DNA of 64,000 nucleotides from an alpha proteobacterium SCGC AAA028-C07 (GCA_000419465.1 ATTB01000004.1:22763-86762), one strand, 5' to 3'. Counted from the first letter of the stretch, positions 16,120-31,925 are shown. Program-made: numbers and translations. The notes: a model not told the origin generated them from the letters alone.

Positions 16120-16626
16120 ATGAAAAAAAGCTCAATTAAAGCATTTACATTAATCGAATTATTAGTCGTTGTAGCAATTATTGGAATTCTAGCTGCAGTA
16201 GGAGTCGTGTCTTTTGGAGGATTTACTGGTTCTGCCAAAATAAATTCAACAAAAGCTAATCACGCAGCTGCAATCAAATCTATCAGCGCTGAAATTAAAA
16301 AGTGTGAAATACAAGGTGGAAATTTATCACTTAAATCAACTGCAAATAGTTCAACTTCAAATAACGTTGCATGTTCTAAAGCAACCACTTCAACAGCTGC
16401 CCTTGCAACTGCTTTTATAAACCACTTAAATAATGAAAGTTTTAAAAATCCTTATGATACTGCTCAAGGGGCTTTTAACTCTTCGGGAACTACAACAGGA
16501 CAAACGATTATTACAGTAGTTACTGTAAGTGGTGTAACAACTATCCAATTACAAACTCGTTATCTTGAGTCCGATGGTGCGACAGTGACAGTACTTACAG
16601 GATCTGTAGCAGACGAAAGAGGTTAA
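16120..16626 (+). CDS. Type IV pilin-like protein, array 1 gene 1 (C-terminal ADERG)
   Basis: KAFTLIELLVVVAIIGILAAVGVVSFGGFTGSAK; ATG at 16120 preferred over upstream GTG 16105. Confidence 0.93.
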   Translation: MKKSSIKAFTLIELLVVVAIIGILAAVGVVSFGGFTGSAKINSTKANHAAAIKSISAEIKKCEIQGGNLSLKSTANSSTSNNVACSKATTSTAALATAFINHLNNESFKNPYDTAQGAFNSSGTTTGQTIITVVTVSGVTTIQLQTRYLESDGATVTVLTGSVADERG

Positions 16627-16640
16627 TTTAATATTTGTAG

Positions 16641-17117
16641 ATGCATAATCATAAAGCATTTACACTTATTGAGTTATTAGTTGTTGTTGCAATTATAGGA
16701 ATTTTAGCGGCAGTTGGCGTTGTCTCTTTTGGTGGGTTCACCGGTTCTGCAAAAATTAATGCAACAAAATCAAATCATGCACAAGTGGTTAAATATATTG
16801 CAGCAGAAACAAAAAAATGTGAGACCGGAGCAACTTATGCTATGGAGACTTCACCCACACAAAGACTAACCTGCGCTGGCAGATCCGTCCAAACTGTATC
16901 AACCTATGCATCATCAGGACTTGTGGGCTTAAAAGTTCCTTATGACTCTCAATATGGAGCTGTGTCATTTGAAAGTCCAAAAAATTCAGATGCTGATTTA
17001 GGTCGTAATCGTCTACAGCAAGGACAAAGCGCTAAATACATTAAAGTGTCTACTTGCTTTCAATCACCTTGCACGGACAGTGCAAATGTTCTCACCTCTG
17101 AAGTTGAGATATATTAA
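16641..17117 (+). CDS. Type IV pilin-like protein, array 1 gene 2
   Basis: KAFTLIELLVVVAIIGILAAVGVVSFGGFTGSAKINATK. Confidence 0.93.
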   Translation: MHNHKAFTLIELLVVVAIIGILAAVGVVSFGGFTGSAKINATKSNHAQVVKYIAAETKKCETGATYAMETSPTQRLTCAGRSVQTVSTYASSGLVGLKVPYDSQYGAVSFESPKNSDADLGRNRLQQGQSAKYIKVSTCFQSPCTDSANVLTSEVEIY

Positions 17118-17132
17118 TTTAAAATTTTTGAT

Positions 17133-17558
17133 ATGAGCAATAGTAAAAAAGGGTTTACACTAATTGAATTGCTTGTTGTTATTGCTTTAATTGGAATTTT
17201 ATCAACGATTGGCATTGTAACTTATACCGGTTTTACAGAATCTGCTGCGCAAAAATCTGCAGAGAGTAGTTTAAATTCTATGACCCTAGCTCAGCAAGAA
17301 TATCGCTCAAATAATGGAACCTATTATCCAACTTCAGGAACATCTGGAGCTTGTACGCCTACACTTGCAACATCAACCCTTTTAAATGATCAATTATTTG
17401 GTGGGACTCAAACTGATAATTTAACAAAGGGCAGATATTATTTTTGTTCAACTGCAACAGCATCATCTTACACGGTAACCGCAAAGCATACTTCAAAGGC
17501 TTGTCAGGTAACTCTTACTGAAAAAAATGTTTATACCAGAACAGGCTGTGATGGTTAA
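17133..17558 (+). CDS. Type IV pilin, PilE-like, array 1 gene 3
   Basis: KKGFTLIELLVVIALIGILSTIGIVTYTGFTESAAQ; AQQEYRSNNGTYYPTSG typical of PilE-type pilins. Confidence 0.9.
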   Translation: MSNSKKGFTLIELLVVIALIGILSTIGIVTYTGFTESAAQKSAESSLNSMTLAQQEYRSNNGTYYPTSGTSGACTPTLATSTLLNDQLFGGTQTDNLTKGRYYFCSTATASSYTVTAKHTSKACQVTLTEKNVYTRTGCDG

Positions 17559-18423
17559 ATCTAAAGCCTTTACGTTAATTGAGGTGTTAGTTGTCATGAT
17601 AATAATGGGAATTTTATCTTCTTTTGGGGTAATAGGTTATAATAATTATACAGCTTCTGTAAAAGACACTGCAACAAAATCAAATTATGAAACAATTAAT
17701 AAACTATCAGAATCTGAATTTGCTAAATGTAAACTAAACAAAAATTCAAAAATTTTTAATAATCATGATTGTAAATCATCAGCCCCACCCAGCATTACTC
17801 AGTTGGATGACTATTTTACAAATTCTCAAAAATTAAAAAATCCCTATGACCAAAAACAAAAAGTAATACAAAATGACATTTGTGTAGCAGGAGGGGTGAC
17901 TTTAAAGACAACTAATAAAGGGGTATTTGAAACAAGTTATTTTTCACAAAAAAATAATACTAAAAATACATCAAATATAAATTCCACTTGGGCACAAAAA
18001 TTCACAGACACTACATCAACAAGCGTTTCATTTGCATGCACACAAACTGCAAGCGCAAGCTCATCAGCAAGTTCAGTTACAGTCGGAAGTTTTGACTCCT
18101 ATAAGCCTCCTAATTCTGGAGCAGGAGCTGGAATTATCGTTGATAGAAACGGTAATATGCAAGATAAAATAAGTAATGGAGCTATGGCATGTGGCCCAGA
18201 TTGTTTTACAGCAAATTTTGACTCTTGGTTAAAGGGTGGTGGTCTAGATCCAAATCAATATAAAGTTGTTATGGCCGAGGGTGCAAGCTCAAGTGGAAAC
18301 GTTGCATCAGCATGCGCAAACAAGAATTGTAAATATAATTTTTCTGACAATACTTTTACAGTACTTAATTCTGGAAAGACTTATAAAGCTGGAGAAAGTA
18401 TAGATACAATTTATTCAAAATGA
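17551..18423 (+). CDS. Large type IV pilin-like protein, array 1 gene 4
   Basis: KAFTLIEVLVVMIIMGILSSFGVIGYNNYTASVKD; internal ATG at 17551 preferred; ~290 aa. Confidence 0.85.
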   Translation: MVKSKAFTLIEVLVVMIIMGILSSFGVIGYNNYTASVKDTATKSNYETINKLSESEFAKCKLNKNSKIFNNHDCKSSAPPSITQLDDYFTNSQKLKNPYDQKQKVIQNDICVAGGVTLKTTNKGVFETSYFSQKNNTKNTSNINSTWAQKFTDTTSTSVSFACTQTASASSSASSVTVGSFDSYKPPNSGAGAGIIVDRNGNMQDKISNGAMACGPDCFTANFDSWLKGGGLDPNQYKVVMAEGASSSGNVASACANKNCKYNFSDNTFTVLNSGKTYKAGESIDTIYSK

Positions 18424-18426
18424 TAA

Positions 18427-18981
18427 ATGGGTTTTAGAGCATTTACATTAATTGAAGTTTTGGTGGTGGTTATGATAATTGGAGTTTTATCTGCTGCTGG
18501 AATATTTGGTTTTAGTAAATATACTGATTATGCAAAGAGAAAAGCCACAGAAAAAAATTTTTTTACAGCTATAAGCGTTATCGAAGCTGAGATTGCAAAA
18601 TGCAAATTATCTGGCAATAGACCCACAGCACTGACTTTCAATTTACCCTGTCCTTTTCAGGCATCAGCATATTATCAAGAGTGTGCCGCTGTATATATGT
18701 CATGGAAATATAAAATTTATAATCCCTTAGCGCCCAAAGAAGAAAGCAGGTGGTCAGTAGGCAGTAGACCTGGAACACAATGCCCAACAACAGTTGAAGA
18801 AACTTTTAGAGGAGGAGTTAGATCGGGGGATGGTCAGCAGGATGGAGATGTAAATATTGTAATATGTCCAAGATCTCCTTATTGTTCTGCAGATCCAGCC
18901 ACAGATGGAAAAATGAAAGTGATGTGGTGGTATGATGGTTTAAAAATGCAAGACTCAAGAATCGTTCAATTGATAAAGTGA
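18427..18981 (+). CDS. Type IV pilin-like protein, array 1 gene 5
   Basis: RAFTLIEVLVVVMIIGVLSAAGIFGFSKYTDYAKRKATEKNF. Confidence 0.88.
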   Translation: MGFRAFTLIEVLVVVMIIGVLSAAGIFGFSKYTDYAKRKATEKNFFTAISVIEAEIAKCKLSGNRPTALTFNLPCPFQASAYYQECAAVYMSWKYKIYNPLAPKEESRWSVGSRPGTQCPTTVEETFRGGVRSGDGQQDGDVNIVICPRSPYCSADPATDGKMKVMWWYDGLKMQDSRIVQLIK

Positions 18982-19466
18982 TAAAAGCTTTTACATTAAT
19001 TGAACTATTAGTTGTTGTTGCAATTATTGGAATTCTTGCAGCAGTTGGAGTTGTCTCTTTTAGTGGTTTTACAGAAAGTGCAAAGGTATCAGCAACAAAA
19101 CAAATTCAGTCTCAAACTATCAAGTATACAAAAGCTGAAATTATGAAATGCAAACTTGGTGCTGCTACAGCTATGAGTGGGTATTTAAATTGCACAGCTT
19201 CTAATCCAGGTTTATTTGCCTTTAACGTTATGCAAGCTTTAACAAATGTGAGTTCTTTAAGAGTTGGAAATATTGATTATGGTGTGTTGAAGGACTCTAA
19301 AAATCCATATGATAATTCCTTACCCGCAATAAGATCAAGAGCTGATTATGAGGTGGGTCAAGTAAGTATTTCCGTTATTGATACAAATTTGCAGATAAAA
19401 ACTTGTTACAGAAGTGGATGTGCTGCAGCAGATACTTCTTTAGTTTTAGTTTCAACTACTGATTAA
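18978..19466 (+). CDS. Type IV pilin-like protein, array 1 gene 6
   Basis: KAFTLIELLVVVAIIGILAAVGVVSFSGFTESAKVSATK. Confidence 0.93.
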   Translation: MIKAFTLIELLVVVAIIGILAAVGVVSFSGFTESAKVSATKQIQSQTIKYTKAEIMKCKLGAATAMSGYLNCTASNPGLFAFNVMQALTNVSSLRVGNIDYGVLKDSKNPYDNSLPAIRSRADYEVGQVSISVIDTNLQIKTCYRSGCAAADTSLVLVSTTD

Positions 19467-19471
19467 ATGGC

Positions 19472-19498
19472 TTTTAAAGCAAATATTGCTTTTAAAAT
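19472..19498 (+). terminator. Hairpin between last array-1 pilin and pilT
   Basis: TTTTAAAGCAA..TTGCTTTTAAAA near-perfect inverted repeat. Confidence 0.35.
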
Positions 19499-19548
19499 AC
19501 AGGTTTTTTCCATTTTCTTTTAAGGTATAATTAATCAAATTTATAAAC

Positions 19549-20553
19549 ATGCTTAATAAAATTAGCGAACTTGCTAAAACTAATCTTAAAATTTCGGATT
19601 TTCATTTAAGAGAAGGATCTAATATTGCATACCGTGTATTAGGAGAAATCTTTCAGGATACAAACTCCTTAATTAAAAAAAGTGATTTAGAAGAATTATT
19701 AAAAAAAAATTGCACCGAAGAGGAAGTTCAAAATTTTCATAAAAATAATGAATTAGATTGCGCCATTAACCTTGCAGATTTTAGATTCAGAGCTAATTTT
19801 TTTAAAACATTAAATGGAATTGCTGCAGTGCTTAGAAGAATTGTAACTAAAATTCCATCTATGGAGGAGTTAAATTTACCACCTATTATGTATGAAATAG
19901 TTGAGGCGCATAAAGGTTTAGTTTTAGTAACTGGCCCCACAGGATCTGGAAAATCTACAACACTTGCCGCAATCATTGGAAAAATTAATGAACTAAGACC
20001 TAAAAATATTATCACCATTGAAGATCCGGTTGAGTTTATTCATCATGATAAAAAAAGTATTATTTCACAACGAGAAGTTGGCAAACAAACATCCTCATTT
20101 GCACGAGCTTTAAAAAGTGCACTTCGAGAAGATCCAGATGTTATTTTAGTTGGTGAGATGCGAGATTTAGAAACTATTTCCATGGCACTTACTGCAGCAG
20201 AGACAGGACATTTAGTTTTAGGAACACTCCACACAAGTGGTGCTCCTAATACTATCAATAGAATTATCGATGTTTTTCCTCCAGGTCAGCAGGGGCAAAT
20301 TAGAGCACAAATTGCAGAATCTTTGAAAATGATTATTACTCAAAAGTTAATAAAGAAAAAAGATGGAACGGGCCGAGTTGCGGCATTTGAAATTTTAACC
20401 TGCACTCCTCCAATTAAGAATTTAATTAGAGAAGCTAAAGTTCATCAGATTCCAAGCGTAATGCAAACTTCCCAAAAAGATGGAATGGTTACTATGGAAA
20501 AATCTATTGAGATCTTAACTCAAAGTGGGGCAATCTCAGGTGCAATTGATTAA
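19549..20553 (+). CDS. pilT: Type IV pilus retraction ATPase PilT
   Basis: GPTGSGKSTTLAAIIGKIN, ITIEDPVEF, ALREDPDVILVGEMRDLETISMALTAAETGHLVLGTLHT. Confidence 0.95.
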   Translation: MLNKISELAKTNLKISDFHLREGSNIAYRVLGEIFQDTNSLIKKSDLEELLKKNCTEEEVQNFHKNNELDCAINLADFRFRANFFKTLNGIAAVLRRIVTKIPSMEELNLPPIMYEIVEAHKGLVLVTGPTGSGKSTTLAAIIGKINELRPKNIITIEDPVEFIHHDKKSIISQREVGKQTSSFARALKSALREDPDVILVGEMRDLETISMALTAAETGHLVLGTLHTSGAPNTINRIIDVFPPGQQGQIRAQIAESLKMIITQKLIKKKDGTGRVAAFEILTCTPPIKNLIREAKVHQIPSVMQTSQKDGMVTMEKSIEILTQSGAISGAID

Positions 20554-21127
20554 ACAAAAAGGGTTTTCGTTAATAGAATTATTAGTGGTGATTGCCTTAC
20601 TTGGCATAATCTCACTTGTTGCAGTTCCAAATATTAGAGAATGGCTTGTAAAAAAAGAAATGGAGAAGGACTTAAATACCATTATGAGTATTGTTAAAAA
20701 TGTATCGAACGATATTGGCAATAATCTTTACGAAATGGGTGGAGTATTTTTTGATAATAACAACGGCAATGGATTAATTGTTAAAATTAGATATAGAGGA
20801 CCTGATAAATATCGTACTTTTCAAACTTGCAATAACAATGACTCTGAGTGGGATGGAGTTGAAACTTATAGTTCAAGTTCTGTATCAGAAAATTATTCAA
20901 CATTTTCAAATATTAGACTAGATAGAGCCACTGCCAATTTTTGTTTTTCAAAGAATTTTACAGTGAATTTCACAGGCAATGTAAGTTTGTGTCATAAAGA
21001 AAAAAATACTAATGCCATATGTCAGCTAGTGAATACAAATGACCCTTATTATGATCTAATTGTTCAAAGAACAGGAAAAGCCGGATTTTTAAAATATTCA
21101 TATGCAAAAAAACACTGGGTTCAATAA
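20525..21127 (+). CDS. FimT/GspH-like minor pseudopilin
   Basis: QKGFSLIELLVVIALLGIISLVAVPNIREWL; in minor-pilin operon; start uncertain. Confidence 0.8.
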   Translation: MGQSQVQLIKQKGFSLIELLVVIALLGIISLVAVPNIREWLVKKEMEKDLNTIMSIVKNVSNDIGNNLYEMGGVFFDNNNGNGLIVKIRYRGPDKYRTFQTCNNNDSEWDGVETYSSSSVSENYSTFSNIRLDRATANFCFSKNFTVNFTGNVSLCHKEKNTNAICQLVNTNDPYYDLIVQRTGKAGFLKYSYAKKHWVQ

Positions 21128-21542
21128 CAAAGGAATTAGCTTAATAGAAGCTCTAGTTTCTATCGTTATATTAACCGTTGGTATTGTGTCGGTTTTACAA
21201 TTATCGGTTTATGCCGTTCGAACTGCCGATGTTACACTTGAAAAAACTAAAGTTAATTTTTTATCTGAAATGATGATGGAAACTTTAGTTGTAAATCAAA
21301 GTGCCTTACAAAGTTATCAATTAAGCATCAATGATTGCAATTACACTTTTAATAATAATTTACAAAAAATTTGGACAGAAACTTATAAAAATGTTTTAGA
21401 CACCAATACTAAAACAACACGATGTCTTCCAGGAGATAAAAAACTTGCAACAATTTCCAATAATAACAATAACGCGAGTATTAATTTTAGTGTTGGGGGT
21501 GGTAAGCAAAATAAATTTTTAGGGTTTTCAAAAATTGAATAA
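21102..21542 (+). CDS. pilV: PilV-like minor pilin
   Basis: KGISLIEALVSIVILTVGIVSVLQL. Confidence 0.8.
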   Translation: MQKNTGFNNKGISLIEALVSIVILTVGIVSVLQLSVYAVRTADVTLEKTKVNFLSEMMMETLVVNQSALQSYQLSINDCNYTFNNNLQKIWTETYKNVLDTNTKTTRCLPGDKKLATISNNNNNASINFSVGGGKQNKFLGFSKIE

Positions 21543-22311
21543 TTTTTTAAAAAATAACAAGGGTTTAACCCTAGTTGAAATTCTAGTGGCCACCGTCATT
21601 GGCAGTATAACGGTTGCTGCAATTTATTTTTCTTTTGGAATATTTTCTAGCACTTACCTTGGCATAGTTGCAAAAGTACAAGTAAGTAAAGACATAAGAA
21701 ATGCATTGACGGTTATAACTAAGGATGTTCGTCTTGCAGGATATACTTCAAAAATTCCAACTCAGAGTGGAGGTGTGAGCTTTGCACCATTTTCAACGAT
21801 GAATAATAAAATTATTGTTAGAAAAAACACATATTTTAACCAAAATTCCATGCCCGGATCTTATGCTTCAGGAACTAATGATGTATTAGAAGTTATTTAT
21901 GATCGAGACCGAAGCACAAGAGTGAGAGTTTCTTATGCGCAAAGTAATGATGGTTTTTTGAAAAAAAGATTATCAAGATGTTTAAATGCAGACTGCTCTG
22001 GGGATAGCGATTATGTTTATAATGAAAATGGGTTTTATGATTATCAGCCTATCGCTGGTCAAGGGTTAGAGGGTTTTAAAGTCACAGCATTTAATTCTGC
22101 AGGAACTGAACTTACTTCTACGCAAGCAAATCAAGCCCAATTTATTAGGGTATCAGTTCTTTATTCATCTGCAACAAATGGTGAGGTTCATAAAACCGAA
22201 CAACAACAAACCTTTAAAGTGGAAGAATTAACAGTTTCTAAAAATGATAAATTTTTTAGAGATATGGCAAGTGTTCTAATTTATCCAAGAAATATTCAAA
22301 CATTAAAATGA
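21535..22311 (+). CDS. pilW: PilW-like minor pilin
   Basis: KGLTLVEILVATVIGSITVAAIYFSF..DIRNALTVITKDVRLAGY. Confidence 0.85.
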   Translation: MNNFLKNNKGLTLVEILVATVIGSITVAAIYFSFGIFSSTYLGIVAKVQVSKDIRNALTVITKDVRLAGYTSKIPTQSGGVSFAPFSTMNNKIIVRKNTYFNQNSMPGSYASGTNDVLEVIYDRDRSTRVRVSYAQSNDGFLKKRLSRCLNADCSGDSDYVYNENGFYDYQPIAGQGLEGFKVTAFNSAGTELTSTQANQAQFIRVSVLYSSATNGEVHKTEQQQTFKVEELTVSKNDKFFRDMASVLIYPRNIQTLK

Positions 22312-22973
22312 TAAAAAAGATAAAAAAAAATAACCAGCAAAAACAAAAAGGATTTGCCCTTGTGCTAGCCATTCTTTTGTTGGTTGTGATGTCCATAATG
22401 GGTGTGACATTGGTTACAATTGTTTCAGGAGATTTTAACGAAAATGAAAAAAGAGATGAGTATCAACAATCACTCTATGCGGCTGAAACGGCTGTCAACG
22501 ATGCAAAAGTTTGGCTAAGAAAAACAGGTTTGCCTACATCTCCACAAGCCTTTAATGGCGGTGGAGTGACTGGTTGGTGTCAGATTTCAAGATTTAATGA
22601 TTTAACAAATCTTGCAAATACTTTTGTTGTTGGAACTGCGCCAAGTGGTGGAAAGAATTTTAATACAATCATTAATTCCACCGGTGCTGATAAGACAAAA
22701 TATGAAAGTTTTGAATTTTATTGGTTTGTAACTTTCCCTCCAACTTGGGATACTGCAACGAGCACTTATAAGACAATAGCTCAAATTACAGCAAGCGCTT
22801 CAGGCAGTACAGGTACTAATGTTGGTGAAAGTGCAAATTATAAAAGCTCATCATCAAGCTCAGGTCTTTATTATAAAATTTATGCTTGTGGTAGAAAAAA
22901 GCCATCATTATTGAATCCTTTTGAAAATACTCCGGTTGCAGCTTTAGATGTAATAGTAAAGGCCGTTCGATGA
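22308..22973 (+). CDS. pilX: PilX-like minor pilin
   Basis: QKGFALVLAILLLVVMSIMGVTLV..YAAETAVNDAKVWL. Confidence 0.82.
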   Translation: MIKKIKKNNQQKQKGFALVLAILLLVVMSIMGVTLVTIVSGDFNENEKRDEYQQSLYAAETAVNDAKVWLRKTGLPTSPQAFNGGGVTGWCQISRFNDLTNLANTFVVGTAPSGGKNFNTIINSTGADKTKYESFEFYWFVTFPPTWDTATSTYKTIAQITASASGSTGTNVGESANYKSSSSSSGLYYKIYACGRKKPSLLNPFENTPVAALDVIVKAVR

Positions 22974-23485
22974 GAAAAATAAATTTTAAATATTTGATTT
23001 TATTTTTAATTCTTCTTACTAATGAAGTCTTTGCTTGTAATATTAAATTTAGAAATTTTGGCTCAAGCCCTGATGCTGTAAAATTAAATCCACCACCGTT
23101 CATGTTGAATGATCCTTTGGGAGGATTAAACATCTTAACTCCTATTTCAGCTTTATGTCCTCAAAATAAAGAATTATTTGGAACTATGGTCTCGTTATTT
23201 TACATCAATAATGAACTCGTTGAGATTAGATTAGAACGTTATAATCAAAACGATAGAGCATTGATGGACCTTGCAATTGCAAGGTATGGAGATTTTAAAC
23301 GTTCTTTAGCTTTCGATAGAAAAAATTGGCAAGGATTTAATAAATGGGAAAATAGTAATGAAGTCATAAATTATTTAGCAACTCCCATTCAAGGCGGCAA
23401 TACTGAAAAACTAAGCATTACCTCAAAGCAACACGTTAATAAAATTTCAGAATATTTTTCAAAAAAAGAACAATGGAAAAAATAG
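22970..23485 (+). CDS. Exported protein of unknown function between PilX and PilY1
   Basis: 171 aa, N-terminal signal peptide; overlaps pilX (4 nt) and pilY1 (13 nt). Confidence 0.7.
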   Translation: MRKINFKYLILFLILLTNEVFACNIKFRNFGSSPDAVKLNPPPFMLNDPLGGLNILTPISALCPQNKELFGTMVSLFYINNELVEIRLERYNQNDRALMDLAIARYGDFKRSLAFDRKNWQGFNKWENSNEVINYLATPIQGGNTEKLSITSKQHVNKISEYFSKKEQWKK

Positions 23486-26400
23486 CTAAAATTTTACTTC
23501 TTATTGTTTTTTTAGTTTTTACAAAAAATGTAAATTCTAAATCACCCCCTCCAGGCACTGGGACTAGCGATATTCCAGCAAATATCATGATTATGTTAGA
23601 TAATTCTGGCAGCATGAATTGGGCTTTAAATTCTAGCTCAGCAAGTAGTTTAGAATATCCAATCGATGTTGCAGTTGATAGTTCAGGTAATATTTATGCG
23701 CTTGAATATTTTAGATGCAGAGTTGTAAAGTATAATAGCAGCGGAACTTTTATAAGAGCATTTGGATCTTGTGGCAGTAATAACAATCAGTTGAGTGCTC
23801 CTCATCAAATTTTTGTAAGTGGTAATGAAATTTTTACCACAAATACAACAGATAATTTTATAAATATTACTGATCTAGATGGAAATTTTAAAAGAAGTCT
23901 TTTAATTCGCGATCAATTTGGGGTAGGTAGCGGCGCGGTTAGAGGTGTTACGGTATTTGGAAATTATTTATATTTAAATTTCGAGAGAGAAATAAGAATT
24001 TACGATAAAAATTCATCTGGATATGCGTCGCCAATACAAACGCGTACCGGAAGTAATTTAGTTAGTTATATAGTTGGGATGGATATTTCGAATGATGGTA
24101 CAAAATTATTAGTAAGTAATTATGATTTATCAAATAGTGGCTCTAAACTAGTTGTCTTTTCCTTATCTGGAGGATTAATGACTGGTGCCTATACGATTGT
24201 AAGTAATGACATTACTAGAGGTTGGGATGCAGTATTTGACAGTAGCAATAATATTTATGCAACAGACTATATTAATTATAGAATTCAGAAATTCACATCA
24301 TCTTATGTTAACTCTGCTAAGTATGGTTCTTACTCTAGTAGCACTCCATTTCTTCAACCAAGAGGTATAGGAAAAGACTCAGCGGATAATATTTACGTTG
24401 CAGATTTCTGGCAAAATAAAATTTATAAACTCAACTCTTCTTTAACTACCGTCTCTACGATTTCAGGTGGCAATAGAATGGATGTTGCAAAAAGTGTTAT
24501 AAAGAAAATTGTTTCTAATACTGAACTTACATCAAAAGCAAATTTTGGATTGATGGAATGGGGTTGGCCTTATGCAACAAGCAATGGTGGTCTCAGAATT
24601 AGAGTTCCAATAAGCTCATCTGGAGCTAAGACAATTTTTACTAATGTTGATGGAGTTATTGCTGATGGAGGAACTTATCTAAATAATGCTTTAAGTCTTG
24701 CAAAAAGTTATTTTGCAGGCTCAGCAGGATATCCTTCTCCTATAATTTCAGGAGCAAGTTGTCAGCTTAATTATTTGATTGTTATCAGTGATGGGGAATG
24801 GGCAGATCCTTCAGGTGTAGTAAGCACTGCAACCACACTTGCAAATCAAACTCCTCCTATTAAAACTTTCGCGGTAGGGCTTGCGCTTGGAAGCAGTTCT
24901 ACAAATTACACAAATCTTGCTGTAGCTGGTGGTACTAAAGTTCCATTATATGCAAGTAATGAGCAGGAATTATTAGCAGCATTAACCGATGCAATTAAAC
25001 AAGTAATTTCATCTACTTTAACGTTTTCAGCCCCAGCAGTTACTTCTGAGATAACAAAAGATAATTTTATTTATCAATCTACATTTAGTTATGCTCCAAA
25101 CAAGCAGTGGGAGGGAAGTTTAAAAAAATACAAATTAAATGCAGATAGTACTATCGGTAATTTAGAGTGGGATGCTGGTACAAAGCTTAATAGCAAAAGC
25201 GCATCTAGTCGACAATTATGGACAGTTGGATTATCAGGAACAGGCCTAAATAATTTTACTACATCCTATCGAAGTGAATTGAGAGATCGTTTCCAATCAA
25301 GTCTAGCATCATCCGATGCCCAAGTTGATAAATTAATAAATTTTGTAAGAGGAATTGATACTTACGATCAAGATGCAGACGGTAATACTTCAGAGGAGAG
25401 ACATAAATTAAATGATATTTACCATTCGCAAATTTCAATTGTAAGCCCTCCCTCATCATCTATTACTTATACTTCTATTTATGAGGACTCTTATTATCGA
25501 AGTGTAAATAATTACACAAATTTCACAGGCGGTGGAACTTGTGGAGGTGGATGTGCTAGTCGAAGGGAAATAGTTTTAGCAGGATCTAATGCTGGAATTT
25601 TACATGCTATTGATGCATCTTCTGGAGAAGAGTTGTGGGGATTTATTCCACCCAGCATGTTAAGTAAATTACCCAAAATAATATCTAGCACTGCAAATGT
25701 TACTAATGCAATTTTTGGAGTAGACGGCTCACCAGTTGTTAAAGATATTTATTATGGTGGAGTGTGGAGAACAATTGTTCTTACAGGATTAGGAAGAGGT
25801 GGTAATAGTTACTTTGCTTTAGATATTACAAATCCAAATTCTCCAACACATTTATTTACAATTGAAAATGATGATAATGGAAAAGTTGTAAACTTTTGGA
25901 ATAGTTCAGGCTTTAAAACTAGTTATCTGCATAGCTTTGGATCAGTTGCAGACGCCACTAAAGATTATTCAAAATTAGGAGAGACATGGTCGACACCTAG
26001 AATTATTCGTATACGTATAAGCAATGTTGATAAATGGGTTGCAGTTTTTGGCGCAGGTTTTAATGGAGGTGTAAATCCTAATTTAGGTTCTGCAGCATTT
26101 GTTATGGATCTTGAAAATGGCGGAAATCTTTTAAAAAAAATTGATATTACTGATAAATCAAACACTATTGCAAATTCGGTACCATCCGATCTTGTGGTTA
26201 TTACTGCAAATGGCACAACTAAAGCACAATATTATGGAGCAATGGTTTATGTGCCAGATTATGAAGGGAAAGTTACAAAAATTAACTTAACAAGCTCAGG
26301 TACTCTTTATCAATCCACACAATTATTTGATGCAGATTCCTCAACTACCAATGGTCGATATATATTAAACGGCGCAGAAGCTACTATAAATTCCGATACT

Positions 26401-26946
26401 TTATGGCTGTATTTTGGAACGGGGGACTCAGAAAAACTCCAAGATCAAATTTCAGGAACAGAAAACAGAATTTACGGTATCAAAGATGTGAATTTTCCAA
26501 ATTTCGTATCCTTAGGATCAGCCGGCACAATATCTAACTGCAGAAACACAACAACACAAACCAGCTGCCCAACAAGCAGTGATCTTGGTTGGTATGTCAA
26601 TTTACCAAATGCCCAAAAATTAACTGCTCAACCTACCATTAAAAATTCATCTGTATATTTTCCAGTTTATGAGCCAACAACGGGTGCATATATTTGTAAT
26701 ACTGGAAAAGCTATATTAAAAGCAACAGGAACAACTTGCGGCGACTCTTTGTTATCTGTAACTTTAGGAACTGGAGTTTTGTCTAAAGTTACAACTTCAG
26801 GCACTAAAGTAATTGTTGGAATAAGTGGAACTGCAGATACGAGTCAGGCCGCAGGATTTATTAAAAAAGATAATTTAATTACAGGTGAACAAGTTGGTAC
26901 ATCCTCAACTTCTACAATTATTACTGAGTCATGGAGAGAAAATTAA
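23473..26946 (+). CDS. pilY1: PilY1-like pilus tip/assembly protein with nested NHL-like propeller in vWA domain
   Basis: 1157 aa; MIDAS DNSGSM, NHL-like repeats (PIDVAVDSSGNIYALEYFRCRVVKYNSSG; PRGIGKDSADNIYVADFWQNKIYKLNS), C-terminal PilY1 propeller (GSNAGILHAIDASSGEELWGFIPPSML). Confidence 0.88.
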   Translation: MEKIAKILLLIVFLVFTKNVNSKSPPPGTGTSDIPANIMIMLDNSGSMNWALNSSSASSLEYPIDVAVDSSGNIYALEYFRCRVVKYNSSGTFIRAFGSCGSNNNQLSAPHQIFVSGNEIFTTNTTDNFINITDLDGNFKRSLLIRDQFGVGSGAVRGVTVFGNYLYLNFEREIRIYDKNSSGYASPIQTRTGSNLVSYIVGMDISNDGTKLLVSNYDLSNSGSKLVVFSLSGGLMTGAYTIVSNDITRGWDAVFDSSNNIYATDYINYRIQKFTSSYVNSAKYGSYSSSTPFLQPRGIGKDSADNIYVADFWQNKIYKLNSSLTTVSTISGGNRMDVAKSVIKKIVSNTELTSKANFGLMEWGWPYATSNGGLRIRVPISSSGAKTIFTNVDGVIADGGTYLNNALSLAKSYFAGSAGYPSPIISGASCQLNYLIVISDGEWADPSGVVSTATTLANQTPPIKTFAVGLALGSSSTNYTNLAVAGGTKVPLYASNEQELLAALTDAIKQVISSTLTFSAPAVTSEITKDNFIYQSTFSYAPNKQWEGSLKKYKLNADSTIGNLEWDAGTKLNSKSASSRQLWTVGLSGTGLNNFTTSYRSELRDRFQSSLASSDAQVDKLINFVRGIDTYDQDADGNTSEERHKLNDIYHSQISIVSPPSSSITYTSIYEDSYYRSVNNYTNFTGGGTCGGGCASRREIVLAGSNAGILHAIDASSGEELWGFIPPSMLSKLPKIISSTANVTNAIFGVDGSPVVKDIYYGGVWRTIVLTGLGRGGNSYFALDITNPNSPTHLFTIENDDNGKVVNFWNSSGFKTSYLHSFGSVADATKDYSKLGETWSTPRIIRIRISNVDKWVAVFGAGFNGGVNPNLGSAAFVMDLENGGNLLKKIDITDKSNTIANSVPSDLVVITANGTTKAQYYGAMVYVPDYEGKVTKINLTSSGTLYQSTQLFDADSSTTNGRYILNGAEATINSDTLWLYFGTGDSEKLQDQISGTENRIYGIKDVNFPNFVSLGSAGTISNCRNTTTQTSCPTSSDLGWYVNLPNAQKLTAQPTIKNSSVYFPVYEPTTGAYICNTGKAILKATGTTCGDSLLSVTLGTGVLSKVTTSGTKVIVGISGTADTSQAAGFIKKDNLITGEQVGTSSTSTIITESWREN

Positions 26947-27703
26947 AAATTTCATCCATAAAGATTAGATAAACAAGATTTCCAATAATTATAAAAGGTC
27001 CAAAAGGTATTTCATTTTTCATCTTTATTTTACCCATTATTAATTTTGGAGCAATTACAATCAGTGCAATAATTGATGCTAAAAATATTATAATAAATAC
27101 CGACTGAAAACCAAACCACAATCCAATTCCACAAAATAATTTTGCATCTCCTAAGCCCATCCCTTCAATATTTTTTAATTTTTTATATAATTTTATAATT
27201 CCCCAAATCATCCCATAACCTATAATTCCCCCAATAATCGATGAGATAAAATCTGAAAATATAAATTTATCTAGTTCTGGTATAAAATTTTTTAAAAAAC
27301 CTGAAATAATAAATATAAAATTTAAGGAATTTGGAATAATAAAATGTTTAAGATCAATAAAAAAAATAATTAAATAAATTGAGAAGATAAAAATAAGTAA
27401 TAACGTTTCAATTGAAAATCCAAACATATAGTAAATACCTAAAAAACTTACGGCTGAAATAATTTCAACAATTAAATATTTAGATGAAATTTTTTTCTTA
27501 CAATAGAAACATTTACCCCTTAGAAAAAGGTAGGAGAATATTGGAATATTAAAAAACCAGGAAATTTTTTTTTTACAATGAGGGCAGTATGAGCGATTTG
27601 TAACAATACTTTGTTCTAAAGGAAGTCTATAGATGCATACATTTGCAAAGCTTCCAAATATCGCTCCTAGTAAAAATAAGAGAATATAAATTTCAAAAAA
27701 CAT
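26921..27703 (-). CDS. pilD: Prepilin peptidase PilD
   Basis: 260 aa; GSFANVCIYRLPLEQSIV, CPHCKKKISWF, GMGLGDAKLFCGIGLW. Confidence 0.95.
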   Translation of the reverse strand: MFFEIYILLFLLGAIFGSFANVCIYRLPLEQSIVTNRSYCPHCKKKISWFFNIPIFSYLFLRGKCFYCKKKISSKYLIVEIISAVSFLGIYYMFGFSIETLLLIFIFSIYLIIFFIDLKHFIIPNSLNFIFIISGFLKNFIPELDKFIFSDFISSIIGGIIGYGMIWGIIKLYKKLKNIEGMGLGDAKLFCGIGLWFGFQSVFIIIFLASIIALIVIAPKLIMGKIKMKNEIPFGPFIIIGNLVYLIFMDEIFNFLSMTQ

Positions 27704-27770
27704 CAGGTTATTAATTTAAAATTATAAGCAAATAATGTATATTTTATTAGTTTATAATTAAAAAGAACCA

Positions 27771-28286
27771 ATGAAAATAAAGGGTTTTACTCTCATCGAG
27801 CTTCTTGTTGTTGTTGCAATTATTGGAATATTAGCTGCAGTCGGAGTAGTTGCATACAATGACTTTGTAGGAAGCACTAAAGTAAAGAGAGCAACTTATG
27901 ATCATAATCAGGCAATTAGACAGATGAAAACATTGATTTATTCATGCTCAACCGTTGGACATGTTATGCTCACAACTTCACCGGATGGTTCCACTTCTAA
28001 GTTTAATTGCAGTACAAGTTTTGCAGTTTTAAAAGTTCAATTTACTGCTCATTTTTTTTGGAATGGTTTTAGAAATATATGGGGCGATCCAAACAGATGC
28101 TGTGCAGTTGCCGGTGACAGTAGAATGAAAGGATATATGATTGGCTATTCTTGTAATCAAAATCCTGATCTAGGCTTTATGAATTTATGTGATGTAAGCT
28201 CTACATCAATGTATGCCAGTACAAATGTAGGAACTTCTAATGGTGGAAATAACATTATTACAACATATTTTGATATTCCTCGTTAA
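27771..28286 (+). CDS. Type IV pilin-like protein, array 2 gene 1
   Basis: KGFTLIELLVVVAIIGILAAVGVVAYNDFVGSTK. Confidence 0.92.
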   Translation: MKIKGFTLIELLVVVAIIGILAAVGVVAYNDFVGSTKVKRATYDHNQAIRQMKTLIYSCSTVGHVMLTTSPDGSTSKFNCSTSFAVLKVQFTAHFFWNGFRNIWGDPNRCCAVAGDSRMKGYMIGYSCNQNPDLGFMNLCDVSSTSMYASTNVGTSNGGNNIITTYFDIPR

Positions 28287-28324
28287 AAATAAAATTTATA
28301 ATATTTCAAGCAATAAAGTCAGTT

Positions 28325-28795
28325 ATGAAAAATAAAGGTTTTACACTTATAGAACTTTTAGTTGTTGTAGCGATTATTGGAATATTGGCTGCTGTAGCTG
28401 TGGTAAATTTTGGTGGCTTTACTGCAGGGGCTAAAGCAAGTGCTGTTAAAGCAAATCATACATCTGTTGTAAAATTTATAAGTACCAAAATTAATGAGTG
28501 TAATATTATGGGGAGCAAACCAACTAGCCAATTTTATTTAAAAAGCGCTCGTGGAGACAACACCGTCACAGTTGCATGCTCAAAAAATAATGTCAGTTCT
28601 TATGATCTTGTAGGACATTTTGTAAATCATTTTAATGGAACAGGGATTTCTTCAACGCGTGGTACGTCTGATGGAACACAAGTTACAATTAATGAGAATG
28701 GTAATATTTCTTTAACAATAAGAACTGCTTACATAGACCCAAATGACTCCACTAAAAGAATTTTTTTAGAAAATACAATTACTGATGAAAGATAA
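28325..28795 (+). CDS. Type IV pilin-like protein, array 2 gene 2 (C-terminal TDER)
   Basis: KGFTLIELLVVVAIIGILAAVAVVNFGGFTAGAK...ENTITDER. Confidence 0.93.
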   Translation: MKNKGFTLIELLVVVAIIGILAAVAVVNFGGFTAGAKASAVKANHTSVVKFISTKINECNIMGSKPTSQFYLKSARGDNTVTVACSKNNVSSYDLVGHFVNHFNGTGISSTRGTSDGTQVTINENGNISLTIRTAYIDPNDSTKRIFLENTITDER

Positions 28796-29324
28796 TAATA
28801 AAGCTTTCACATTATTAGAACTCCTAGTTGTAGTGGCTATTATTGGAATCTTAGCTGCGGTTGGAATGGTTGGTTATAATGGGTATACAACAGCAGCAAA
28901 AAGGAACGCAGTAAAAGCAAATTTTGCTATGACCCTTAAGTATATCAAAAGCGAAATAATGAAATGCGAATTAAATAGTAATAATAAAATTTTAGAAGGT
29001 TTAGTTGATTGCAAGGAAAGAGCTAAAGTAATTGCAGGAAATGCATCTAAAAATGAATTTAGAGAAAATTTTGGTATTAGCTTAGCACAGGCCATAAAGC
29101 TAAAAAATCCATATAAGACAGAAGCAAATGGAATCAGCGTTCAAAACTCATGTGATAGTGATAGCATGGTAGGATATGTATGTGTTTTATATAATAATTA
29201 TGCTGGTTATACGCTTGATAAATATTTAGCGATCGAAGCCTGTTATAAAGTCCCATGCCCGTCGAATGAAGGCTCTACAAGAAATGAAACAAATAAATTA
29301 TTTGCTGAAATAGACTTATTTTAA
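28785..29324 (+). CDS. Type IV pilin-like protein, array 2 gene 3
   Basis: KAFTLLELLVVVAIIGILAAVGMVGYNGYTTAAK; overlaps upstream gene by 11 nt. Confidence 0.92.
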   Translation: MKDNNKAFTLLELLVVVAIIGILAAVGMVGYNGYTTAAKRNAVKANFAMTLKYIKSEIMKCELNSNNKILEGLVDCKERAKVIAGNASKNEFRENFGISLAQAIKLKNPYKTEANGISVQNSCDSDSMVGYVCVLYNNYAGYTLDKYLAIEACYKVPCPSNEGSTRNETNKLFAEIDLF

Positions 29325-29347
29325 AAAAAATTTTATTTTTAAATAAT

Positions 29348-29911
29348 ATGAATAAAAAAGCTTTTACCTTAGTGCATATTTTAATAATTTTTGGTTTTAT
29401 TATTATAAGTGTATTGGTTAGTATTTTTGTAATTAAGAATTACTCACTCTCGAAGAAGATATCAAAAACTATCAACCAACATGAAAGCATTTATCGGTTT
29501 ATTGTGGCTTATCAATTTATGTGTAAAACTAGCTCGGCAAACGTTTTAACTTTTAAAACTTGTGCTGGAAATAATAGCGAATGTAAGAAGGGTAGAATTG
29601 TAACGCCAGGAGTAACTAAGATCTCATGTTCTAGCAAATCAGTAAGTGCTGAGAATGTTGCAGATTATTTTGTTATGCATTTTAACGAGAATGGATATGT
29701 AAATTATTATAATAAAAAAAATGCTAAAATTGATGAAAATTTAAAATTTTGCTGTCTTGTTAAAAATTCAAATCCTAAAAAAGGTCAAACTTATATTTAC
29801 GGAGATAATAAAAATAATATAATAAAAATTACAACAAATGTAGGAAGTAAACTTTCAAAGGATGTTTATTTAACTAATACAGTTGATTGGCCTGGTAAAG
29901 ATTTTAAATGA
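29348..29911 (+). CDS. Divergent pilin-like protein lacking Glu5 (His5), array 2 gene 4
   Basis: KKAFTLVHILIIFGFIIISVLVSIFVIKNYSLSKK; same position and size as neighbours. Confidence 0.75.
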   Translation: MNKKAFTLVHILIIFGFIIISVLVSIFVIKNYSLSKKISKTINQHESIYRFIVAYQFMCKTSSANVLTFKTCAGNNSECKKGRIVTPGVTKISCSSKSVSAENVADYFVMHFNENGYVNYYNKKNAKIDENLKFCCLVKNSNPKKGQTYIYGDNKNNIIKITTNVGSKLSKDVYLTNTVDWPGKDFK

Positions 29912-30417
29912 AAAATAAAGCCTTCACTCTTATAGAACTTTTGGTTGTTGTAGCTATCATTGGGATTTTAGCAGCCGTTGGCGTTGTTTCATTTAGCGGG
30001 TTTACTGATAGCGCTAAAGTATCAGGAACAAAATACAATTATAACTTAGTTTTAAAGTTTATAAGGACAGAACTTATTAAATGCGATGCTGGATCTTCAA
30101 GAATTTTTAGCAACACTGTTTTATGCTCTTCTTTAAGCCCCGGAACAATAATTCCTGCTGTTCAAGCTAATTTAAATGATCAAGGAGGATTTAGAACCAC
30201 CTATACTTTGAATAATACTCTTGTTAGAAATACAGGATCAAGTAGCTCAGATGCAAATGTTGGAGCTGTTTTTTTAAACGGTGGTTCTTTTGATAATACT
30301 TTTAACCCTGGTTTTTCTCCCGCTTTAACAGGAAATAGTTTTAGAGTAACAGCATGTTTTAAAACGCCCTGCACCGATCAGAATAATCAGTTACAAACAG
30401 TTATTTCTTTACCATGA
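29908..30417 (+). CDS. Type IV pilin-like protein, array 2 gene 5
   Basis: KAFTLIELLVVVAIIGILAAVGVVSFSGFTDSAKVSGTK. Confidence 0.93.
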   Translation: MKNKAFTLIELLVVVAIIGILAAVGVVSFSGFTDSAKVSGTKYNYNLVLKFIRTELIKCDAGSSRIFSNTVLCSSLSPGTIIPAVQANLNDQGGFRTTYTLNNTLVRNTGSSSSDANVGAVFLNGGSFDNTFNPGFSPALTGNSFRVTACFKTPCTDQNNQLQTVISLP

Positions 30418-30917
30418 AAAAAAATAATTCAGCATTTACTTTAATTGAGCTTTTAGTTGTCGTAGCTATAATTGGAATCTTGGCTGCGGTTGGAATTACT
30501 CAGTTTGGTGGATTTACGGAAAGCGCTAAGATTGCAGCTGTTAAAGCAAATGAGAAAACGGCCGCAAGTTATATTAGAAATACACTGATGAAATGTGAAT
30601 TTCAAAGTACAGTGGTTATTGAAACTTATGGTTCCATTGATTGTAAAGCAGTACAACATCATTCAGCAATTTCACCAATGCTTGCAGTTTTTAATAGTTA
30701 TCTACTTCCAAAATTTGGAAAAAACCCCTTTGACAGTTCATTAAATGCAATCGTTGTTTCAGGACAAGGCCAGGTTAATGGAATGCTTTCTTTAGATTAT
30801 GGTCGCCCTGATCAGTGTGATGGTAGAAGATGGTGCTTAAGATTAGTTGCATGGCTATCGAACGGCTATCCAAATGGACGAAATGATACTCAATTTTATT
30901 TTCCAAATTGGAACTAA
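30414..30917 (+). CDS. Type IV pilin-like protein, array 2 gene 6
   Basis: SAFTLIELLVVVAIIGILAAVGITQFGGFTESAKIAAVK. Confidence 0.93.
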   Translation: MKKNNSAFTLIELLVVVAIIGILAAVGITQFGGFTESAKIAAVKANEKTAASYIRNTLMKCEFQSTVVIETYGSIDCKAVQHHSAISPMLAVFNSYLLPKFGKNPFDSSLNAIVVSGQGQVNGMLSLDYGRPDQCDGRRWCLRLVAWLSNGYPNGRNDTQFYFPNWN

Positions 30918-31402
30918 TGAAAAATAAAAGTGCCTTTACTCTTATAGAGCTTTTAGTTGTTGTAGCAATAATTGGAATTTTGGCTGCGGTTGGGGTTGTT
31001 TCATTCGGTGGATTTACTCAGAGTGCAAAAATTAATGTCGTAAAATCTAATCATAATTCAATCATTAAATATTTAAATACTGAGATTAAAAGATGTCAGA
31101 TTCAAAGTAGCATCCAACTCAAATCCATGGGAAATAGCCAAAATATAAATGTTATCCCTTGCTCTAAATCAACGACAGATACAGCTACTTTTTTTAGAGC
31201 TGTTCAGGATCATTTAAATAACGAGGGCTTTAAAAATCCTTACAAAAATTCAGAAGTAGCCTTTTTTTCATCAGGTGGTAATAGCCTTGGTAGGACAGTT
31301 GGCATTTCATATTCCGGAAACTTAATTACGGTAAATTCCTCTTATAATAACTCAAGTGGAAACTTAGAAATCATTACATCAACAGTTACTGATGAAAGAT
31401 AA
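30917..31402 (+). CDS. Type IV pilin-like protein, array 2 gene 7 (C-terminal TDER)
   Basis: SAFTLIELLVVVAIIGILAAVGVVSFGGFTQSAKINVVK...STVTDER; TAATG start preferred over 30908. Confidence 0.93.
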   Translation: MKNKSAFTLIELLVVVAIIGILAAVGVVSFGGFTQSAKINVVKSNHNSIIKYLNTEIKRCQIQSSIQLKSMGNSQNINVIPCSKSTTDTATFFRAVQDHLNNEGFKNPYKNSEVAFFSSGGNSLGRTVGISYSGNLITVNSSYNNSSGNLEIITSTVTDER

Positions 31403-31925
31403 AGCTAAAGCGTTTACTCTTATAGAACTTTTAGTTGTTGTAGCTATTATTGGAATATTAGCTGCAGTTGGAGTTGTTGCTTATAATGGGTATACGGAAT
31501 CAGCTAAAAAAAAAGTTACTATAGCTAATCACTCAATAATTTATAGAACTATGCTTAATGAAATTAAAAAATGTGAAATTAATGGCTCAGGAGGATTATT
31601 AAACTTAAATGGAACAAATTTACTTCAATGTTCAGATATTTTGTCATCAACTAATAATTATGGAAAAGTAACAACTGCGATGAGCACATACTTTAGATCT
31701 GCAATTAAAAATTCCTATAACTCCAAAATTCCATCAACTTTTTATGGAAGATATCAAGGCTCATGCGTTGCAAGCGGTAGTCAACCGTCTACTTGGGAAG
31801 GTTTAAATGAACAAGGAGTTCATCATGTTGCAATGGGATGGGAAAGTAATAGAATAATACTTTACATTGATTCATGCATTGAGGCTTCCGGCTCAGCTGA
31901 AACTAAAATATACTATGTGAAATGA
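31392..31925 (+). CDS. Type IV pilin-like protein, array 2 gene 8
   Basis: KAFTLIELLVVVAIIGILAAVGVVAYNGYTESAKKK; overlaps upstream gene by 11 nt. Confidence 0.93.
   Translation: MKDKAKAFTLIELLVVVAIIGILAAVGVVAYNGYTESAKKKVTIANHSIIYRTMLNEIKKCEINGSGGLLNLNGTNLLQCSDILSSTNNYGKVTTAMSTYFRSAIKNSYNSKIPSTFYGRYQGSCVASGSQPSTWEGLNEQGVHHVAMGWESNRIILYIDSCIEASGSAETKIYYVK

Follow-up and report, generated by a model that had tools for sequence, protein, structure and literature searches.

Does a type IV pilus tip protein carry one beta-propeller nested inside its vWA domain in addition to the usual one at its C-terminus? The question is raised by the gene at 23473-26946 in a 64,000-nucleotide stretch of DNA (hereafter, the window) from the alpha proteobacterium SCGC AAA028-C07. 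The original prediction, made from the sequence alone, was that this gene encodes PilY1 and that an NHL-like propeller interrupts the vWA domain just after the MIDAS motif. The source genome is incomplete (about 0.85 Mb; 75.6% complete, 32 contigs), and the named homologues of the protein are almost all from Pelagibacteraceae (SAR11).

By its domains, its MIDAS, and its operon, the product is PilY1, the tip protein of type IVa pili, from a SAR11 bacterium (Table 1). Genes of the PilV, PilW, PilX, and GspH types lie directly 5' of it (that is, it is encoded with minor pilins, as expected of PilY1). The C-terminal propeller is separate from the proposed nested one and is real, as predicted: PF05567 matches residues 695-923 with 54.8 bits (cut-off 28.1), a match that is seen with the C-terminal piece or in the genome search only and is absent from a full-length hmmscan. 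In a PDB sequence search, P. aeruginosa PilY1 (3HX6) matched residues 695-797. The calcium motif Dx(D/N)xDG matches once, at residue 632 in the linker, and not within the C-terminal propeller.

Table 1. The pilY1 gene of the window, the parts of its product, and the neighbouring genes. Positions are nucleotides of the window; residues are those of PilY1.
Feature	Position	Strand	Basis or remark
PilT/PilU-family retraction ATPase	19549-20553	+	TIGR01420, 427.8 bits (cut-off 319.1)
Four minor-pilin genes	20525-22973	+	Several matches below curated cut-offs; starts at 20525 (prepilin, GspH/FimT type), 21102 (PilV-like), 21535 (PilW-like), and 22308 (PilX-like)
Secreted protein, 171 aa, no known family	22970-23485	+	Directly 5' of pilY1; position kept in SAR11 and UBA5680
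pilY1 (protein P0001, 1157 aa)	23473-26946	+	PF05567 on C-terminal part; 3HX6 match
Probable signal peptide, residues 1-22	23473-23538	+	Hydrophobic N-terminus ahead of KSPPPGTGTSDIPAN (sequence only)
vWA strand beta-1 with MIDAS DxSxS, residues 36-48, ANIMIMLDNSGSM	23578-23616	+	Strand 36-43, pLDDT about 90
Inserted segment, residues 49-333	23617-24471	+	Alignment to empty-site homologue (L109); SAR11 insert lengths
Predicted six-bladed NHL-type beta-propeller, residues 63-331, 24 strands	23659-24465	+	AlphaFold2; Foldseek; Pfam NHL
Remaining vWA domain from alpha-1 onward, residues 334-513	24472-25011	+	Pfam and structure model
MIDAS threonine T401 (GGT)	24673-24675	+	Invariant in alignments A1 and A2
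MIDAS aspartate D440 (SDG)	24790-24792	+	Invariant in alignments A1 and A2
Linker region, residues 514-690	25012-25542	+	Without Pfam family; DxDxDG calcium-type motif at residue 632
C-terminal PilY1 beta-propeller region, residues 691-1157	25543-26943	+	PF05567 match 695-923
Prepilin peptidase (PilD)	26921-27703	-	PF06750, PF01478; 3' of pilY1

In the window's PilY1, DNSGSM runs from residue 43 (nt 23599) to residue 48, and GGNRMDVAKSVIKKIV begins at residue 332 (nt 24466); the original prediction had located both points correctly. About 285 residues separate the MIDAS strand (36-48) of the vWA domain from its continuation, which starts with alpha-1 at residue 335. Within the gap, the Pfam NHL model is significant (E = 3.8e-9, or 2e-10 with the N-terminal piece alone; 40.6 bits, cut-off 20), and 31 of 41 members match it at E ≤ 0.01. 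Both Pfam VWA models align only from residue 332, past the MIDAS strand, and enter at profile position 13 or 17. In the PDB sequence search, NHL propellers matched residues 42-138 and 244-335.

We modelled the protein with AlphaFold2 (model m27a7566baeba, from an alignment of 41 natural sequences; mean pLDDT 85.7, pTM 0.68). The predicted elements follow in the order beta-1 (36-43), 24 strands (63-331), alpha-1 (RMDVAKSVIKKIV, 335-347), and the remaining strands and helices of the vWA domain, which places the repeats within the vWA fold and not outside it. The 24 strands form six blades of four strands each, and the best Foldseek matches were the NHL propellers of TRIM71 (TM 0.83) and Thin (TM 0.77), by target length. 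D43, S45, S47, T401, and D440 are invariant in all 41 sequences, and the last two are C-terminal to the insert. No second MIDAS follows the repeats; the sole other DxSxS in the protein (residue 218) is within the propeller itself.

The nearest homologue outside SAR11, from the Pseudomonadota bin UBA5680 (locus L109), offers a natural empty site. It has two copies of pilY1, with the junctions DNSGSM-RGN-RMIDAKAVIKTIV and DNSGSM-GNSATS-RMAQAKAVINALV. Because these copies align to the SAR11 protein on both flanks of the insert and skip it cleanly, its boundaries are fixed to within a few residues. The UBA5680 pilY1 genes are themselves split (L109 411-2087, 2057-3490, 4116-5822, and 6660-8693), with the rest of the propeller in a later ORF. 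Both genes end at the same point (..QCWDACG[EK]WP), and the second of the later-propeller ORFs begins with a secreted papain-like domain (C39-type by eye).

Every SAR11 PilY1 with a readable junction has an insert of 268-326 residues at this site, and the longer SAR11 forms (1500-1630 aa) also carry an insert. The window's protein had matches in 89 of 397 genomes of a family sample, and a profile had matches in 132 of 298 genomes of an order sample, some of them weak; homologues are also present in complete, single-contig SAR11 genomes. In one divergent SAR11 clade, the NHL score is marginal and below the Pfam cut-off, yet the predicted structure retains a propeller-like form and is matched best by the designed Pizza6 propellers. 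Genomes G076, G324, and G452 each have at least two pilY1 paralogues of differing length classes. Outside SAR11, searches with an N-terminal profile found no nested form in class- and phylum-wide samples (387 and 399 genomes), which rare nested cases could escape; the profile gave only partial matches to NHL repeats or to pieces of vWA domains. In another family of alphaproteobacteria with small genomes, a PilY1-like ORF (L239, on contig 31 of G520) runs into the contig end just before alpha-1, and its last residues (FVDYIGRG) might come from the end of a propeller blade. A follow-up within that family turned up no nested form, and one further match that we opened was an unrelated propeller protein. 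The original prediction had called the nested NHL propeller unusual: it is unusual outside SAR11, but within SAR11 the insertion is the rule. We rejected the idea that the feature is peculiar to the window's gene because of its SAR11-wide occurrence. The NHL propeller was most simply inserted once, early in the SAR11 order.

Could the architecture be other than it appears? Pfam alone leaves the two vWA parts unjoined across the insert in the window's protein, as would be seen if the repeats were an ordinary domain flanked by two separate pieces, the MIDAS strand ahead and the later vWA part behind. We rejected this arrangement as very improbable: in the model, beta-1 precedes the propeller and the remaining vWA fold follows it, the empty-site homologue has both parts directly joined, T401 and D440 (the MIDAS partners of D43, S45, and S47) are invariant and lie C-terminal to the insert, and a second MIDAS is absent. 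An error of assembly or a gene fusion in the window's genome is more improbable still. The assembly is incomplete, which might invite such a suspicion, but the same architecture appears in many independent single-cell and metagenome genomes of SAR11, and we rejected an artefact on the strength of those homologues. Structure prediction, domain searches, the empty-site homologue, and the survey of homologues all support the original prediction of an NHL-like propeller inside the vWA domain. Overall, prediction and the empty-site homologue confirm the nesting of an NHL propeller in what is modelled as an intact vWA fold with a complete set of MIDAS residues.

To place the insertion point in a wider context, we considered 25 vWA-containing PilY1 proteins from outside SAR11 (including the empty-site copy from UBA5680). 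The distance from SGSM to alpha-1 is 3-24 residues in nine of them and 112-308 residues in the other 16. None of the inserts in this set matched a propeller family. Because 16 of the 25 carry inserts there, the MIDAS loop is a site at which PilY1 proteins take on extra material, and the beta-1/alpha-1 loop is a family-wide insertion hot spot. In P. aeruginosa PilY1, the vWA domain spans residues 48-368 and its "vWAp" part begins at S178 (PMC8806160); these published boundaries suggest another insertion in the same loop, one that would hold the signalling cysteines 147 and 152. The hot spot is also consistent with published work on Acinetobacter ComC, a PilY1 orthologue, in which lineage-specific insertions alter the vWA scaffold, and adhesion, twitching, and DNA uptake all depend on one of them (PMC10374093).

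The inserted propeller is hypervariable, and its cores are exchanged between otherwise near-identical genes. Comparison of the window's PilY1 with that of a close relative (G232) gives an identity of 61% for the insert and 93% for the remaining vWA domain; dN is 0.336 for the insert versus 0.034 for the vWA, and dS is 0.80 versus 0.56. Among 20 disjoint close pairs, dN was higher in the insert than in the vWA for 18 (median ratio 3.5), and the insert/vWA ratio of dS was 1.02; these estimates come from a simple method and the inserts are harder to align, while the drops in raw nucleotide identity are less affected. Median omega was 0.30 for the insert versus 0.07 for the vWA, and a raised rate with dN/dS below 1 is also compatible with relaxed constraint. 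The fold and the approximate length of six blades are kept even though the inserts share, on average, as little as about 27% pairwise identity. The change is not uniform along the propeller: by blade, it is greatest in 3-4 and least in 1 and 6, which join the vWA domain (p = 6e-8). Loops are more variable on the face usually called the top than on the bottom face (p = 0.013), a modest enrichment among neighbouring sites that are not independent.

As for exchange, propeller core and flank point to different nearest relatives, with a clear gain, in 14 of 65 sequences. Two loci, L090 and L094, share 92-94% identity throughout the operon as against 57-64% in the propeller core, and dS between them is about 1.0 in the insert versus 0.08 in the vWA domain. 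The insert of L090 is closest to that of L127, which is otherwise distant from L090. The operons of L090 and L094, near-identical with a difference almost confined to the propeller core, are a clear case of exchange of a segment within a gene. Beyond the original prediction, then, the architecture is SAR11-wide, its insertion point is a PilY1 hot spot, and it is in the propeller that the gene is hypervariable and recombines.

On the + strand around pilY1 (16144-31925), the window has a tandem array of 14 or more prepilin genes whose leader is of the FTLIE[LV]L type, and many of their products have near-identical N-termini and are diverse beyond them. The 171-residue secreted protein encoded just ahead of pilY1 had no Pfam or NCBIfam match. 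An ORF for a secreted protein of about 170-190 residues is also directly 5' of pilY1 in L060, L061, L065, L069, L090, L094, L102, and L120, and the window's protein is related to the UBA5680 versions (L109 31-414 and 3568-4119; 38.9 and 23.8 bits). We regard this protein as a candidate partner of PilY1. Among the open-licence papers that we searched, none showed pili made by SAR11.

What might the propeller do? In the species that have been studied, PilY1 occupies the pilus tip; its vWA domain is outermost and is needed for adhesion (PMC8806160). In the proposed mechanism, a six-bladed NHL propeller would occupy the beta-1/alpha-1 loop that carries the DxSxS half of the MIDAS. Because the ends of the insert leave the vWA domain at the MIDAS loop and at the start of alpha-1, the propeller should sit beside the metal site, probably at the distal tip of the pilus. 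The C-terminal propeller and the minor pilins would anchor the protein to the fibre. With the vWA/MIDAS scaffold conserved and the propeller varying by point change and allele exchange, the propeller may set what the tip binds, perhaps glycans or proteins on the surface of a particle or cell; alternatively, its variation may let the tip avoid phage binding. The MIDAS loop and alpha-1 are the moving part in other vWA domains. The two tethers of the propeller are close together, and through them the force of retraction could reach these same elements.

A conserved metal-site scaffold with a diversifying propeller is what we would expect of a recognition head with interchangeable specificity, and the inserted propeller is most likely a diversifying recognition module beside the MIDAS. 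To the whole explanation, in which a propeller inserted into the MIDAS loop diversifies the recognition head of the tip, we assign a probability of roughly 0.6. Its main competitor, which we think unlikely but worth serious consideration, gives the propeller a purely structural role (a spacer or shield, stiffening or covering the MIDAS) with no specific ligand, and puts its fast change down to relaxed constraint. The omega of the insert, which stays below 1, would fit this, as would the fact that other PilY1 proteins have, at this very point, unrelated insertions of comparable size, and a model of A. baylyi ComC in which additional folds form a planar shield around the MIDAS (PMC10374093). However, a mere spacer does not predict that the fold and approximate length would be kept at such low identity, that change would be concentrated in blades 2-5 and in the loops of one face, or that cores would be exchanged between near-identical genes, and these observations disfavour it. 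Less probable again is a reading in which escape from pelagiphages that exploit the pilus tip, rather than altered adhesion, is the main driver of diversification in the propeller. Allele exchange within otherwise near-identical genes and variation concentrated away from the vWA junction would both be expected under phage pressure, but the same pattern fits adhesion to varied surfaces. A viral Foldseek search returned general propellers only.

The recognition module that we favour has partial parallels in known systems. P. aeruginosa PilY1 shares the C-terminal PF05567 propeller (3HX6), an N-terminal vWA domain with a complete MIDAS, and a minor-pilin operon; unlike in SAR11, no NHL propeller has been reported in its vWA domain, and RGD is absent from the window's PilY1. 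The NHL propellers of TRIM71, Thin, Brat, and PknD have the same six-bladed fold (Foldseek TM up to 0.83) but belong to other proteins, and to our knowledge none of them is nested in a vWA domain. In the alpha subunit of integrins, a vWA (I) domain and a beta-propeller are likewise combined as insert and host, next to the MIDAS. The order is reversed, however: the alpha-I domain of integrins is inserted (PMC4237329), so that the vWA lies within the propeller, whereas the structure model of SAR11 PilY1 has the propeller within the vWA. We view this parallel as a resemblance and claim no homology. That SAR11 pili bear a kind of reversed-integrin head, in which a MIDAS-containing vWA holds a swappable, hypervariable NHL propeller that is exchanged between strains and sets which surface or phage is met, is a tentative idea, and we would put it at somewhat below even odds.

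Closer to home, ComC, in which finger-like protrusions are embedded in the vWA domain, also has a lineage-specific vWA insertion in a pilus-tip protein, with cassettes replaced between strains (PMC10374093), but that insertion is a beta-finger with a Tyr-rich motif and no propeller, whereas the SAR11 insert is order-wide and always in the MIDAS loop. Myxobacterial PilY1 clades belong to the same family and vary in the N-terminal domain, but vWFA and DUF4114 are the only N-terminal domains known in them (PMC13190605). In the literature we searched, which lies largely outside subscription journals, nothing linked PilY1 with NHL or NHL repeats with the type IV pilus tip. Insertions in the vWA domain have already been published for Acinetobacter ComC; a propeller at that place appears unreported.

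Few cells in the ocean are as abundant as those of SAR11, which are commonly viewed as free-living drifters. If their conserved pilus tip does bear a recognition head that diversifies, the question arises of what these cells touch or avoid. The principle seen in Acinetobacter, that PilY1/ComC proteins gain function via insertions in a conserved vWA scaffold, would extend to SAR11. The MIDAS loop tolerates a whole propeller, and with a natural empty-site control available, the SAR11 protein could serve as a test bed for how a domain in this loop affects MIDAS binding and force sensing. Overall, the propeller in the MIDAS loop suggests that SAR11 pili carry a recognition head that can be swapped.
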